Assembly: GCA_038736355.1 (NCBI GenBank)
Contig: JAVYML010000002.1
Span: 248,001 to 312,000, forward strand
Direction: 5' to 3'
From: Candidatus Hadarchaeales archaeon
GTDB taxonomy: Archaea > Hadarchaeota > Hadarchaeia > Hadarchaeales > WYZ-LMO6
Length of the DNA: 64,000 nt
Shown here: positions 13,772-23,583 of the stretch, in pieces
Layout of the letters: each line of letters starts with the position of its first letter
How positions within the stretch are numbered: the stretch's first letter is position 1
Program-made: the position numbers and the translations under genes
The notes under the pieces: model-generated
What the model saw: only the letters and a program-made list of their open reading frames with translations
Databases searched by the model: none
Told to the model about the DNA's origin: nothing

Positions 13772-14382
13772 TGCGGATCATGGGAGTGGATCTGGCTGGG
13801 ATACCCGCTAATCCCAGTGGAATAGCCTTGCTCCAGGGGTCTACCCTACGCACACTTTTGGTACACGAAGATGAAGAAATCGAAAAACTTTGTGAACGGG
13901 AAGGGGTTAAACTCGTCGCCGTGGATGCTCCCCTTTCCTTTCCAAAGCATGGCTCCCTACGCCCTTCAGATCTTGCCCTCATTAGAATGGGGTTTAGGGT
14001 CTTTCCCCCAACCCTTTCCGGAATGCGAAGCCTTACCTCTAGAGGGATTTCCCTGAGCCTGAATCTAAGGAAGAAGAAGATCATGGTGATAGAAGTACAC
14101 CCTAAGACTTCCGGCAAAATCCTTTTTGGCACCTCCAAAAAGGAGGAATGGGCCAGAAGCCTGGTGAAAAGGGGGTGGGAGATAAAGGGAAAAAGGGGAA
14201 TTCACGAACTGGACGCCTGTGTCTCAGCCATAACAGGTCATCTACACCTACTGGGAAGAACGATCGAAGTGGGGGGGAGGGGAGGTATCATTATTCCGGC
14301 AATTTCCTGGAAATCCTTTGGGAAAACCTACACAGACTGGAGACTCCCACCCCCACCTCCTCGGCCACTCTTTTCAGGGTAA
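13771..14382 (+). CDS. DUF429-family protein
   Basis: About 203 residues starting at ATG 13771, which overlaps the tiaS stop by one base; a TTG three bases earlier is less likely. The RNase H-like start MRIMGVDLAGIPANPSGIAL, VAVDAPLSFP and HELDACVSAITGHLHL are typical of the family, whose biochemical role is not known. The last 15-20 residues are proline-rich and low in similarity to a normal end, and this tail overlaps the 3' end of the opposite TFB gene by 92 bases. The C terminus may therefore have been extended by loss of the original stop. Confidence 0.8.
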   Translation: MRIMGVDLAGIPANPSGIALLQGSTLRTLLVHEDEEIEKLCEREGVKLVAVDAPLSFPKHGSLRPSDLALIRMGFRVFPPTLSGMRSLTSRGISLSLNLRKKKIMVIEVHPKTSGKILFGTSKKEEWARSLVKRGWEIKGKRGIHELDACVSAITGHLHLLGRTIEVGGRGGIIIPAISWKSFGKTYTDWRLPPPPPRPLFSG

Positions 14383-15151
14383 GTCCTATCCCCATCTCCC
14401 TGGCAGCATTATACAACAGGGCGGCCGCCACTAGGTTGGCGGGTTTTCCACCCATCTCTCCGAACTCACCACAAAGTTCATGGGCCCTTCTCAAAACTTC
14501 GGCTGGCAAGTGGAGCTGGGAAGCAAACCTGTCCAAGTAAAGTCTGGGTGAGGAAGGAGGGAGTTTTAACCCCAACTTGCGTCCCAGGGTTTTGGTCATC
14601 CTCCTCAAGGCCATTCTAGCCTTCTCCTCTTTCATCTTCTCCCTCTCCACCAACACCCTCACGATTTCCCTTTCCGTCCTAGGAAGACCGCGGAGTCTGC
14701 AAACCATGAAAACCAACGAGGCCAAAATCAGGCAGGATTTTTGCCCCCTCGTCAGACCCTCCTTTCTGCATTTGCGGTAAAGCTGACTCACCTCTTTCCT
14801 GATCTCATTGGGCAAAGAAAGATCCCCACATATCTTTTCCACTTGGATGAGTGCCTCCCTCAAACTCTTCTCGTGCCACCTCACAGCTCTAGAGCGTTCA
14901 TGGAGAAAACGCATCCTTCTGAGCTTCGCCCTCTCGCTTGGCGGAAGATCCCTACTCACCTTAAAAGTGGTACCCAACCCCAAATCATGAAGGGCTTCGT
15001 CAAGTTCCGAAAAGCCTGAACTTTCTTCGGAATAAGGTAAACTCTGGTGAAACAAGCGTTCCATCAAAACCAAACCGCATGAGGTGCATATTCTTTCCCC
15101 TCTTATGCTGTCCTCGATTACTCTGGTACTCCCACAAGAGGGGCATTTCAT
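14291..15151 (-). CDS. tfb: Transcription initiation factor B (divergent TFB)
   Basis: A 286-residue TFB/TFIIB homologue that recruits RNA polymerase to TBP-bound promoters. The zinc ribbon has C3, C6, C22 and C25 (CPSCGSTR and CTSCGLVL). Two cyclin folds follow, the first around LREALIQVEKICGDL and the second around FASQLHLPAEVLRRAHEL, with HTH ending GVGVSSLCRFSQRI. The B-reader/linker region lacks the usual RAFD-type motif and is short, so this may be a secondary TFB paralogue. Its ATG overlaps the stop of the geranylgeranyl reductase gene, placing both in one operon. Confidence 0.88.
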   Translation of the reverse strand: MKCPSCGSTRVIEDSIRGERICTSCGLVLMERLFHQSLPYSEESSGFSELDEALHDLGLGTTFKVSRDLPPSERAKLRRMRFLHERSRAVRWHEKSLREALIQVEKICGDLSLPNEIRKEVSQLYRKCRKEGLTRGQKSCLILASLVFMVCRLRGLPRTEREIVRVLVEREKMKEEKARMALRRMTKTLGRKLGLKLPPSSPRLYLDRFASQLHLPAEVLRRAHELCGEFGEMGGKPANLVAAALLYNAAREMGIGLTLKRVAEEVGVGVSSLCRFSQRISRKLPE

Positions 15152-18225: not shown

Positions 18226-19206
18226 TTACCTACCAAAAAATCTAAATCTCCTGGTCTTTCTCTTCTTCGAGCGCTTGGGCCTGGGCTTCGATTTTGGCTT
18301 GCTCTTCGTCCTTTTTTTGAAACTCCTTCTTCTCTTTCTAGGAATTTTCTCACCCACCAAAGAAGCTGAAATCTTGAAAGCCTCTTTTTCTATGGCAGAA
18401 TAAACTGCCTCGCTCGCCAGCCGAAGTACTTCTCTCGGAATCCCTCTCGATAACCTGTAAATCTTCCTGATGCTCGAAGGAGTAAAAGGGAAAAGGGGGT
18501 CTCCCTTCGGATTATTCTCCCCCCTAGCCCATGCCATTCTGAGGAGGAGAAGTTCCCGCACTTCTTCAAGGGAAAGCGGTTTCATTTCCAGCATGTATCT
18601 CTTCCTGCTCAGGAGAGAAGGCACATATTCCTGAAGATAGTTCAGAATCTGTTCTTTCCTTCCATTCAGGACCCAAGTTACATTCCTCAAATCGGCCAGT
18701 GCGCGGATCATCTCTGCCACTTTAACGTCGAGCTCGGGGAATTCGTCAACAAAGACCACCAACTTGGATTCTGGATAGGTTTGATGCCATCTATAGAATT
18801 TCTCAAATTCCTCGGTGAGATCCCCTCCGGCCTCTATTTCCAGTCTATTCAGAAGAAGACGTAACATTTGTTCTGGAGTTTCTATCGATTGGGCTGGAAT
18901 GAAAACCGTTAGCAAGTGAGGATCTTGGAGGGGAAGAACCTCACAAAGGTATTTACAAAGAGTGGTCTTTCCCATCCCAAAATCAGAAACCACAAAAGTG
19001 ACGAGATCACCCTCTCTTATCAAATCCACCAATTTAACAACTTCTTCCCTTTGATGAGGAACCATTAGCTTTGGGTGGGGAAGAGGATCCGTTTGGGCAA
19101 AAGGGAAAAACTTCCATCCCCACTTTTTAAAGAGGGAGGCTTTTTTCCGTTCAAAAGTATCCATGTGGAAGGATTCGAGACCAACCCTTTCTCTTACAAT
19201 CTGCAT
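18226..19206 (-). CDS. AAA/P-loop ATPase with extremely basic C-terminal tail
   Basis: A 326-residue ATPase. Residues 74-82 hold Walker A (SDFGMGKTT), 149-156 Walker B (LVVFVDEF), and about 180 a possible sensor NGR. Residues 235-285 form a small winged-helix-like lid (SSIRKIYRLSRGIPREVLRLA). The last 37 residues (290-326) are almost all Lys, Arg, Ser and Pro, ending RRFRFFGR, and must bind nucleic acid strongly. The fold is reminiscent of Orc1/Cdc6 and of TniB/IstB-like ATPases, but it matches neither clearly. Its start overlaps the end of the HTH gene by 13 bases, so the two form an operon behind a palindrome array. Confidence 0.75.
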   Translation of the reverse strand: MQIVRERVGLESFHMDTFERKKASLFKKWGWKFFPFAQTDPLPHPKLMVPHQREEVVKLVDLIREGDLVTFVVSDFGMGKTTLCKYLCEVLPLQDPHLLTVFIPAQSIETPEQMLRLLLNRLEIEAGGDLTEEFEKFYRWHQTYPESKLVVFVDEFPELDVKVAEMIRALADLRNVTWVLNGRKEQILNYLQEYVPSLLSRKRYMLEMKPLSLEEVRELLLLRMAWARGENNPKGDPLFPFTPSSIRKIYRLSRGIPREVLRLASEAVYSAIEKEAFKISASLVGEKIPRKRRRSFKKRTKSKPKSKPRPKRSKKRKTRRFRFFGR

Positions 19207-19751
19207 CTGATCCTCACCCGGTAGGTTCCCCTATCCGTTCTTTCCAAAATCCCATGGTGAAGCAATTTTTCCATGTAATCCTCCAATTCCTTTTTGGGAA
19301 GCATTGTTTTTTCCTCTAGCTCTTTCATGTTTAACTCATCGTGCGAAGTTAGAAAGGAAAGAATCCTTGCCAACCTTATCCTCTCCGAGGGATTTTCAAT
19401 CCCCAGCTTCTCGTAGACTTCGAACCTTGACATTTCTACCCCCTGTAGGGGGGATTTTTTCACGGGTTCTGGTTCTTCCTTCCCTTCTCTTAGAGCGGAA
19501 AGAGCCTCTTCGAAATCCCTTTGAAGTTTTTCTACACATTCCCAAAACATGCCGGGATCCTTCTCCCTCAGAACCTGAAGGAGGCGAACCAGGGTCTCAT
19601 CTCTTGGAACGGCTTCCCCCAAGTTGTATTTGTAAACTGTTTTTGAGTTGACGCCTATGTAGTTCGAAACAGGACGAATACCCATTTTCTTGACCATCTC
19701 ACGCACTATTTCTACCCGCATGGTGGAGGGGAAGAACTCGGCTATTTTCAT
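19194..19751 (-). CDS. HTH DNA-binding protein, partner of the AAA ATPase
   Basis: A 185-residue protein. Residues 10-60 look like a Cro/XRE-type helix-turn-helix (REMVKKMGIRPVSNYIGVNSKTVYKY). A charged linker follows (REGKEEPEPVKKSP), and residues 115-185 look like a winged helix (MKELEEKTMLPKKELEDYMEKLL). I do not recognise a named family. The start codon lies 15 bases from a 113-base cluster of GTAGAC/GTAGGA palindromes, the obvious candidate binding site. It overlaps the ATPase gene, so the pair probably acts together at those sites. Confidence 0.75.
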   Translation of the reverse strand: MKIAEFFPSTMRVEIVREMVKKMGIRPVSNYIGVNSKTVYKYNLGEAVPRDETLVRLLQVLREKDPGMFWECVEKLQRDFEEALSALREGKEEPEPVKKSPLQGVEMSRFEVYEKLGIENPSERIRLARILSFLTSHDELNMKELEEKTMLPKKELEDYMEKLLHHGILERTDRGTYRVRIRCRL

Positions 19752-19765
19752 TCCGTTGGCCCCCT

Positions 19766-19878
19766 TCCTACACTGTAGGAAAAAGGTCTACGCCTTGTAG
19801 ACCTGCTTCCTAAGCTTTTGTAGGCTTTCATCCTACTCACGTAGACCTTTTTCCTACAAAAGTAGACTCGGAGCCTAC
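19766..19878. repeat. Palindrome array upstream of the HTH-AAA operon (operator or origin-like)
   Basis: Ten copies of a GTAGG/GTAGAC half-site occur in about 113 bases in both orientations. Perfect pairs are TCCTACA-C-TGTAGGA (19766-19780) and AGGTCTAC-5 bases-GTAGACCT (19784-19804), then GTAGG-7-CCTAC (19820-19836). GTAGACTC-G-GAGCCTAC (19862-19878) has one mismatch. A 19-base unit, TGTAGGAAAAAGGTCTACG at 19774-19792, recurs as an exact reverse complement at 19840-19858. This is a protein-binding array, most simply for the HTH protein. Confidence 0.85.
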
Positions 19879-19957
19879 ATTTAAGTTCTTCTCTCCCTCC
19901 AATCGGGAAGAGATCCAACAAAACCTTCGAACCACTCCTCCCATTCAGAAGGTTCCC

Positions 19958-20008
19958 CATCTTTTCCCATGTTTCCATAAAATGGAAACATTCTTAGGGG
20001 GAAAGATG
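19958..20008. repeat. Long imperfect palindrome between the divergent HTH genes
   Basis: A perfect inverted repeat, ATGTTTCCAT (19969-19978) and ATGGAAACAT (19982-19991) around AAA, sits inside a longer imperfect one: CATCTTTTCCC on the left and GGGGGAAAGATG on the right. The half-site differs from the GTAG array, so a second regulator is likely, perhaps the 136-residue HTH protein whose start is 20 bases away. Confidence 0.75.
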
Positions 20009-20028
20009 CAAAAGTTAATGGGAAAAGA

Positions 20029-20439
20029 ATGTCGACGGAAAAGGGGAAAAATGAAATAAAAGAGATAAAAAATAGCCCTTTGGTAAAAATTCTCCTTAAA
20101 AATTCCTTTTTTGATGAAAAAACCCTTCAAACACTCCTCCTATACTATTTGGGAAAGGCCAGAAACTTCGAGGAAATAGGCCTAAAAGTGGGGATGGGGA
20201 GATCTGGGGCCTGGAAAAGGTGGAAAAGGGGAAAGGACAACCTCGTACGTGCTTTCTATACCCTGGAGCTGGCTCTCTATTTGGGTCTACTCGAAGAGGA
20301 AATCGCCCAACTCATGTTCGACGATTTGGCCGATTACCTCGATCTTCTAAGGGGGAAGAAAACCCTCCAAGAAGTGCAGGAAAACATGCAAAAAAGAATG
20401 GTAATGTCTCTTCAAAAGGGGCTGGGAAAAAGTATTTAA
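20029..20439 (+). CDS. Unidentified small helical, probably HTH, protein
   Basis: A 136-residue, Lys-rich helical protein. NFEEIGLKVGMGRSGAWKRW resembles a helix-turn-helix, and the C-terminal part is amphipathic helix (LDLLRGKKTLQEVQENMQKR). I do not recognise a family. The 5' part of the gene is markedly A+T-rich compared with its neighbours. It is divergent from the HTH-AAA operon across the palindrome region and 41 bases before Alba, so it may be a regulator of one or both. Confidence 0.7.
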   Translation: MSTEKGKNEIKEIKNSPLVKILLKNSFFDEKTLQTLLLYYLGKARNFEEIGLKVGMGRSGAWKRWKRGKDNLVRAFYTLELALYLGLLEEEIAQLMFDDLADYLDLLRGKKTLQEVQENMQKRMVMSLQKGLGKSI

Positions 20440-20480: not shown

Positions 20481-20777
20481 ATGGCAGAAAGCACGAAAAA
20501 AGGCGCCGCTGACAATGCCGTGTTTGTGGGGACCAAGCCCGTTATGAACTATGTACTGGCTGCCATCACGCAGTTCAACCAGGGAGGCAAGGAAGTAGTG
20601 TTGAAAGCCAGGGGCAAAGCCATAAGCAGGGCAGTCGATGTAGCGGAGATCCTCAGGAATAGGTTCATTCAGGGATTGGTCCCCAAGAGCATAACCATCG
20701 GCACGGAAGAACTCCAAACGGAAAGCGGCGAAAAAATTAACGTGTCCACCATAGAAATAGTTCTCGGAAAGAGCTGA
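20481..20777 (+). CDS. alba: Alba chromatin/RNA-binding protein
   Basis: A 98-residue Alba protein, an abundant archaeal nucleoid and RNA-binding dimer. The family core is clear: [41 protein letters not shown] and [12 protein letters not shown] strong ribosome binding site (AAAGGAGG) precedes the ATG by about 8 bases, and a TATA-like TATTTAAC lies upstream inside the end of the previous gene. A hairpin with a long T tract directly follows, consistent with a highly expressed monocistronic gene. Confidence 0.97.
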
Positions 20778-22166: not shown

Positions 22167-22699
22167 ACCAATACGTCTTCAGGGGAAAGCGCCTTTCCGT
22201 AAAACTGACCTATCTTCCCGTCCCTTCGGGGAAATTCGTGTTCAGGGAAGTGGTGGAACACCCTGGCGCCGTTGCCATCTTACCACTTCTGGAAAGGGAT
22301 AAAATTCTTTTGTTGAAACAATATCGCCCCGCCATAGGCAAGTGGATCTACGAAATACCTGCAGGAACTTTGGAAAAGGGAGAAGATTACCTTGAATGTG
22401 CTAGGAGAGAGCTAGAAGAAGAGACTGGCTACAAGGCAAGAAGGATGGAAAAGCTCTTCGAAATGTATTTGGCTCCAGGATATAGCACGGAAAAGCTCCA
22501 CTCTTTTCTAGCCTCCGATCTAGAACCTTCCTCCCCACATCGCGATTTGGGGGAGGAAATAAAAGTGGTGAAGGTTCCTTTCGAAAAGGCTCTGAAAATG
22601 ATAGAATCCAATCGAATAGAGGATGCCAAAACCATCGCCACCCTCCTTTTCTTCACCTTCACTAGGGACCGTTACAGGAAGCTCAGCACGACTACGTAA
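22163..22699 (+). CDS. NUDIX hydrolase, ADP-ribose pyrophosphatase-like; start codon unusual
   Basis: The NUDIX box GTLEKGEDYLECARRELEEETGY is intact, and the downstream APGYSTEKLHSF fits ADP-ribose pyrophosphatases, which cleave ADP-ribose to AMP and ribose 5-phosphate. The first canonical start is GTG 22238 (153 residues). The frame upstream of it encodes YVFRGKRLSVKLTYLPVPSG, the normal N-terminal strands of this family, and has no ATG, GTG or TTG back into aspS. The best candidate is an ATA at 22163 overlapping the aspS stop as ATAA. The 3' end overlaps the convergent channel gene by 28 bases. Confidence 0.85.
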   Translation: MNQYVFRGKRLSVKLTYLPVPSGKFVFREVVEHPGAVAILPLLERDKILLLKQYRPAIGKWIYEIPAGTLEKGEDYLECARRELEEETGYKARRMEKLFEMYLAPGYSTEKLHSFLASDLEPSSPHRDLGEEIKVVKVPFEKALKMIESNRIEDAKTIATLLFFTFTRDRYRKLSTTT

Positions 22700-23583
22700 A
22701 TGAAGAAGAGTCCCAGCACGAGGAGGGGAAGAAGGTTCTGCATTTTCGTTTCGAATTCTTCCGCTCTTTTCACCTTGCCCGCTTCCACCAGCCTCATCGC
22801 CTGTACCGAAACGATGAGATTATAGAAGAAAAGGGTGTAAACCACCAGCATGATCCTGTCGAAAAGGGTGAGGTATCCCAGGGAAGGCAAGCCGCTGAGA
22901 GCTGTCAGGTGATAGGCCACGGCAGACATCAGGGTGGTAACGCAGATTCCCACTCGCTGTCCGAAGTTCTTAACGGAAATCGAGAAAGTTAGGAGAGAAA
23001 TGAGGGTAATGATGAGGATGGGGAAGAAATATTTGAAAAAGGCTGAAATCTTCGACCTGTACACTGTAACCCCAAAGGAGAACTTGGAATAACTTTCATC
23101 CGGATACACATGCTCATCGACAGAGAGCCTAAAATCCTTCACCTGCCAGCCTGGAATCGTGAGGTTGGGATCCAAGCCGCTTTCCTCCTCATCCGGCTCG
23201 AAAATCAATTCTGAAATTCCGCGGTACTTGTCCTCCAACTCCACCCTTAGAAGATGCTCATCGAAAGGGAAGTTTCGAAAGTTTAAGGAGCTCACATAGA
23301 CCCCCTTCACCCTGTACTCCAGGTAGTTCTCCCCATTCCTCTCCTCCTGTCGAATGAAACTGATGACCGAAGGGGTCCCCTTTAAAAACTCGATATCCGG
23401 CTTTTCTCCTTTGTACTTGAACCATATGTAGAAATCGATGGTAAAGGTCTGAGAGGGCAAGTCTACCTTTTCTATGGCGTTTATCCAAACTCCCACTTTC
23501 ACCTTGGCGGGGGTTTCCGCAGCAACCGGACTCCCCAGGCCCAGAAGGAGGACCAGCGGAAGGGCCAGCAAGAGGTATTTCAT
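22672..23583 (-). CDS. Pentameric ligand-gated ion channel homologue (prokaryotic Cys-loop receptor family)
   Basis: A 303-residue membrane protein. A signal peptide covers residues 1-22 (ends PVAAE). Residues about 23-180 form the beta-sandwich ligand domain, with the family motif FRNFPFDEH at 102-110 and no Cys pair, as in bacterial GLIC/ELIC. Four membrane helices follow: about 182-203 (FKYFFPILIITLISLLTF), 210-230 (pore-lining M2), 237-262 and 283-302. The short M3-M4 linker is charged. Archaeal members of this family are few. Ligand and ion selectivity cannot be read from the sequence. It is monocistronic, with a TATA box 25-30 bases upstream. Confidence 0.88.
   Translation of the reverse strand: MKYLLLALPLVLLLGLGSPVAAETPAKVKVGVWINAIEKVDLPSQTFTIDFYIWFKYKGEKPDIEFLKGTPSVISFIRQEERNGENYLEYRVKGVYVSSLNFRNFPFDEHLLRVELEDKYRGISELIFEPDEEESGLDPNLTIPGWQVKDFRLSVDEHVYPDESYSKFSFGVTVYRSKISAFFKYFFPILIITLISLLTFSISVKNFGQRVGICVTTLMSAVAYHLTALSGLPSLGYLTLFDRIMLVVYTLFFYNLIVSVQAMRLVEAGKVKRAEEFETKMQNLLPLLVLGLFFIYVVVLSFL

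Follow-up and report, generated by a model that had tools for sequence, protein, structure and literature searches.

In some partition systems, repeats in the promoter of the partition operon serve as the centromere. In ParR/parC, the specificities of adaptor and site diversify as a unit (PMC9426499). The MerR-like protein BldC of Streptomyces binds head to tail on 9-bp direct repeats (PMC5859096). We analyzed a 64,000-nt stretch of a Hadarchaeota genome (Hadesarchaea; genome G000), called the window here, whose positions serve as coordinates. It carries a repeat array in front of genes for a helix-turn-helix (HTH) protein, c1, and an AAA+ ATPase, c0, within the promoter of c1 itself. It is likely that c1, c0, and a third gene, c2, constitute a self-regulated chromosomal module of the Hadarchaeota, in which c1 would act on the array in its own promoter, c2 on a palindrome of its own, and c1 and c0 as partners. 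Most likely, the array is a switch by which the operon controls itself and not the standard replication origin of the chromosome. An incomplete survey of the literature on replication and segregation in Hadarchaeota and on related systems found no description of such a module, and this three-gene module of an uncultured order is apparently hitherto undescribed.

A three-gene module of the order

The c0 gene (18226 to 19206, minus strand) encodes 326 amino acids (aa) and overlaps by 13 bp the c1 gene (19194 to 19751, minus strand), whose 185-aa product is a predicted site-specific DNA-binding protein with an N-terminal HTH (GVNSKTVYK) and a conserved C-terminal winged-HTH-like domain. The c2 gene (20029 to 20439, plus strand) encodes a predicted DNA-binding protein of 136 aa, all helical, with a weakly sigma-region-4-like HTH plus long helices. 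Its AlphaFold model (pLDDT 85.6) gave weak, sigma-region-4-like Foldseek matches, and a search against solved structures returned nothing useful. Two other genes of the window are recorded here. Close to the locus, positions 14291 to 15151 (minus strand) encode a TFIIB-like factor with a zinc ribbon and cyclin repeats. The 303-aa product of positions 22672 to 23583 (minus strand) has an apparent signal peptide, transmembrane segments, and a subthreshold match to the ligand-binding domain of neurotransmitter-gated ion channels (E value, 2.6e-4) and is possibly an archaeal pentameric ligand-gated channel.

The named relatives of c0 are Hadesarchaea or Hadarchaeum metagenome-assembled genomes. 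Among 27 genomes of the order, including that of the window, c0 was present in 23, as was c2, and both were absent from the same 4 genomes, which are 56 to 83% complete. A plain sequence search with c1 gave matches confined to the family of the window; the C-terminal domain of c1 is nevertheless homologous between this family and its sister families (hhalign probability, 96.8%; E value, 2e-10). HTH protein, ATPase, and array, whose co-occurrence had been proposed as a check, were found together in every tested homologue. By this comparison, c1, c0, and c2 appear as a near-universal three-gene module of the order (23/27 genomes). It is single copy in nearly all of these genomes; in G014, a second, partial copy of c1-c0 is accompanied by an array of its own. 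Neighborhood comparison gave the gene order c1-c0-c2 in the sister families, often followed by Alba, a small gene (c13), and the aspartyl-tRNA synthetase gene; in the family of the window, c2 is divergent from c1-c0. Recurring neighbors surround the module across the order, and the c0 and c2 trees split the family of the window from the others, in line with taxonomy.

The Alba gene (20481 to 20777, plus strand; Pfam Alba, 2.4e-22) is a conserved neighbor in part of the order. The preliminary description had drawn attention to this adjacency, which does recur in many genomes of the order; we found nothing to support a functional tie, and the adjacency is weak evidence because a tRNA synthetase gene shares the same run of genes.

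Upstream of c2 lies the 21-bp palindrome TGTTTCC-N7-GGAAACA (19970 to 19990), a putative c2 operator. The 10-bp arms noted earlier are present (19969 to 19978 and 19982 to 19991), yet this is not the unrelated element it had been taken for: a TTCC-N7-GGAA palindrome, with arms GTTTCC or ACTTCC, immediately precedes c2 in the examined loci, which cover three families. It is unique in nearly all cases. In the family of the window, it was kept in all four genomes despite diverged surroundings, with one copy per genome; G021 and G025, which are related, each have one further site. Most simply, this palindrome would be c2's own operator.

Outside the order, in the sole genome of the phylum that we examined (G027, locus L047), c0 extends C-terminally into a winged-helix-like region, and c1 and c2 are undetectable, which suggests a one-protein ancestor. 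Remoter c0 relatives in other archaeal phyla (L065, L066, and L068) have their own C-terminal winged helix and lie, in a conserved gene arrangement, next to RadA and an RPA-like gene.

The promoter array and the DNA-reading head of c1

The array (19755 to 19878) consists of six 17-bp units of the form GTAGR-N7-YCTAC, four exact and two with one mismatch, starting at 19755, 19775, 19797, 19820, 19841, and 19862 and thus 20 to 23 bp apart. Among the gaps between half-sites, only 7 bases yields units; the pattern GTAGGN9CCTAC has the wrong spacing and gave no matches. The preliminary description had counted ten half-sites in 113 bases, and we recovered ten exact GTAGR/YCTAC half-sites at 19767 to 19878 (112 bp). 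By local expectation, 150 bp would hold 0.47 half-sites, none of 779 control windows reached ten, and the remainder of the window has at most three half-sites in any stretch of 112 bp. Also borne out was a 19-base unit (19774 to 19792) with an exact reverse complement 47 bases away (19840 to 19858). All four family genomes retain the array despite divergence of the surrounding sequence. In the three family genomes that we searched for its uniqueness (G000, G001, and G002, with the fourth member, G003, left out), all 16 exact matches to the pattern fell at the c1-c0 locus, so the array is effectively single copy, the subject of another proposed check.

A TATA-like element that we assigned by eye to the c1-c0 promoter (19880 to 19887, minus strand) abuts the upstream edge of the array, and all four family members have an AT-rich element at this position. 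Downstream of the TATA-like element, the inverted units could fold into hairpins, as would be expected if the array acted at the RNA level as a leader or attenuator. We regard this as extremely improbable, since the sister families have half-sites in direct orientation, which cannot base-pair among themselves, some of these half-sites lie upstream of the TATA-like element, and there was no Rfam match.

The N-terminal heads of c1 differ between families, those of the sister families being of the MerR type. Sister-family c1 promoters carry GTTAR or DGACA half-sites, mostly in direct orientation and often exactly 10 bp apart; the G022 promoter has seven in a row at 10 bp. In several sister genomes, the arrays, as read by eye, straddle the TATA-like element instead of abutting it. 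Head type and half-site agreed in all 22 loci: NSKTVYK heads pair with GTAGR (4 loci), HPNT heads with GTTAR (12 loci, i.e., 11 plus G006), and TKTI heads with DGACA (6 loci, more weakly in G012 and G007). The c1 site abuts or overlaps its own promoter in 22/22 loci, with promoter elements read by eye and binding inferred from covariation. The motifs were first recognized by eye and then counted against local controls; an unsupervised phased-4-mer test was weak for most loci, with only two loci above all shuffles. GTTAR matches sit at c1 promoters, bar one extra in G021, and the DGACA matches in three genomes (6/6) lie within or just upstream of the c1 promoter. Pattern searches gave essentially one array per genome and no chromosome-wide regulon.

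The c0 tree requires a minimum of five changes of head type, the c2 tree four, and the partial trees of three neighbor genes three each, although branch support was moderate and the well-supported branches by themselves leave only one independent pair. G005 and G010 belong to the same genus yet differ in head type as well as array type. The DNA-reading head and the array thus appear to have been replaced together several times, possibly in fewer events than counted, as both traits lie on one cassette and may have been transferred jointly. Because head type and half-site match in 22/22 loci and change jointly, c1 almost certainly binds the array. The repeated joint swap of head and promoter array is a natural experiment on how the specificity of a regulator is rewired. 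As a separate observation, L053, L055, L062, and other HPNT-type c1 proteins have an HNH-like zinc domain inserted between the MerR-type head and the C-terminal domain (Pfam HNH, 8.7e-7 in L053), whose catalytic histidines are lost in part of the genomes, the VHH histidines being absent in G004 and G005.

By sequence, the MerR-type heads fall among the heads of IS607 transposases, TKTI with one transposase group and HPNT with another (a short alignment with moderate support). This placement, together with the different heads within one genus, is what would be expected if the module were the remnant of a mobile element or a captured IS607-like regulator, kept as a selfish or addictive unit. We consider this explanation unlikely: c1 has no recombinase domain (no resolvase match in Pfam, versus 4.8e-27 in one transposase), the same neighbors are kept across the order, and the trees follow taxonomy in separating the family of the window. 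In G003, about 10 partial or whole matches to IS607-type MerR heads are scattered over several contigs, with one full transposase and one disrupted, which suggests that an IS607-type element has spread in this genome.

The ATPase c0 and its relation to origins and centromeres

Both profile and fold place the c0 protein in the Orc1/Cdc6-TnsC-MuB group, in agreement with the earlier comparison with replication initiators. It matched Pfam AAA_22 (3.7e-10), a profile search found archaeal and fly Cdc6/Orc, TnsC, and MuB, and its AlphaFold model (pLDDT 83.6) was closest to Orc1/Cdc6 in Foldseek, followed by TnsC and MuB. It lacks the C-terminal winged-helix domain of Cdc6 and is not among the PF09079 matches of the genome. 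A disordered tail ending in FRFFGR has Lys or Arg at 23 of its 39 residues. The basic tail noticed earlier is real but not a general feature, being confined to the family of the window; elsewhere, c0 has a short hydrophobic-basic end (e.g., FLKRIFSFLM), and the G012 tail includes a strongly hydrophobic, transmembrane-like stretch. Membrane association through the tail is at most a reasonable guess.

An origin was among the possibilities raised in the preliminary description; with c0 as the initiator, it would fit the fold of c0, closest to Orc1/Cdc6, and the repeats beside its gene. This is very improbable. The genome has two true Orc1/Cdc6 genes elsewhere, at C2:318 kb and C1:143 kb, and c0 is without the initiator's winged helix. 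The genome contains exactly two full origin recognition box (ORB) elements, an inverted pair at C2:326353 and C2:326715. One orc1 gene lies about 8 kb from this pair, and the array (C2:267.8 kb), itself not ORB-like, is 58.5 kb away from it. Within the window, GC skew, proposed as a check, did not turn at the locus. The ORB pair near orc1 is the probable chromosomal origin; it spans about 380 bp end to end (G000 C2:326353-326733; L072 16353-16733) and encloses a 118-aa ORF.

A different role in chromosome maintenance, for which c0 is a candidate factor, would be at a centromere-like or chromosome-anchoring site, with array-bound c1 as the adaptor, c0 as the motor or anchor, and autoregulation as a second use. 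Each genome has essentially a single array, which is invariably found at the c1-c0 operon, and the module is near universal in the order and nearly always single copy. The distance from the locus to the ORB pair is 58.5 kb in a genome of 1.27 Mb, adaptor and site diversify together as in ParR/parC (PMC9426499), and the c0 tails include one with a transmembrane-like stretch and others with a short hydrophobic-basic end. Against this, c0 is an AAA+ protein of the Orc/TnsC group (AAA_22) and not a ParA, ParM, or TubZ; the nearness to the origin may be chance (about 9%), the assemblies of relatives being fragmented; and we saw no link to segregation. Such a role is conceivable, if on balance improbable. 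A more specific form of it, which we hold doubtful, is that the array serves as the one chromosomal site at which an undescribed archaeal machine for chromosome anchoring or segregation is loaded, where array-bound c1 would load a tail-tethered Orc/TnsC-like ATPase and recognition specificity would be swapped as an IS607-derived cassette.

Proposed function and comparison with described systems

Autoregulation is the simplest function because the array sits at the c1-c0 promoter, and the phrase "autoregulated element" in the preliminary description fits an array within the c1 promoter whose half-site tracks the head type. The binding sites of the module are predictions from sequence. Comparison of genomes shows the module, the arrays with their match to the head type and their near-uniqueness, and the two operators, whereas repression, c1-c0 contact, tail function, and cellular role are inferred as follows. 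In its own promoter, c1 would occupy several sites of the helically phased array side by side and block TBP, TFB, or polymerase, so that c1 and the coexpressed c0 would be kept at a set level; c2 would control itself likewise through its 21-bp palindrome. That c1 works with c0 is suggested by the overlap of their genes and by the C-terminal domain of c1; this domain, which stays constant while the DNA-reading head is exchanged, is the likely contact to c0. Array-bound c1 may also recruit or release c0, whose C-terminal tail would hold it to the membrane or to DNA. The six-site array exceeds the needs of simple autorepression, which counts against the self-regulated module as we prefer to read it. 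Because of the single site, the near-universality, and the size of the array, the c1-array complex may have a further role in c0 loading, anchoring, or segregation.

Parts of this module resemble several described systems. With Orc1/Cdc6, c0 shares the AAA+ fold; it differs in lacking the C-terminal winged helix, the sites of the module are not ORBs, and the true Orc1/Cdc6 proteins are encoded elsewhere. TnsC and MuB are like c0 in AAA+ fold, size, and separate DNA-binding partner, but c0 has no transposase nearby and belongs to a conserved chromosomal module. ParMRC also combines a repeat array with a coencoded adaptor (here c1, as predicted), but c0, the would-be motor, is an AAA+ ATPase, and c1, the would-be adaptor, has a different fold. 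HPNT-headed IS607 elements carry GTTAAC at the promoter position, as HPNT-type c1 genes do, but these transposases are mobile and have a resolvase catalytic domain in place of the C-terminal domain of c1. Among solved structures, those of BldC come nearest to the MerR-type heads of c1, and direct-repeat sites of variable number, predicted in the case of c1, lie near promoters in both. BldC has 9-bp repeats and a pleiotropic regulon, whereas c1 contains additional domains, and its predicted sites are 10 bp apart and occur essentially only in its own promoter. This MerR-like, direct-repeat likeness belongs to the sister families; the c1 of the window has a non-MerR head and palindromic sites.
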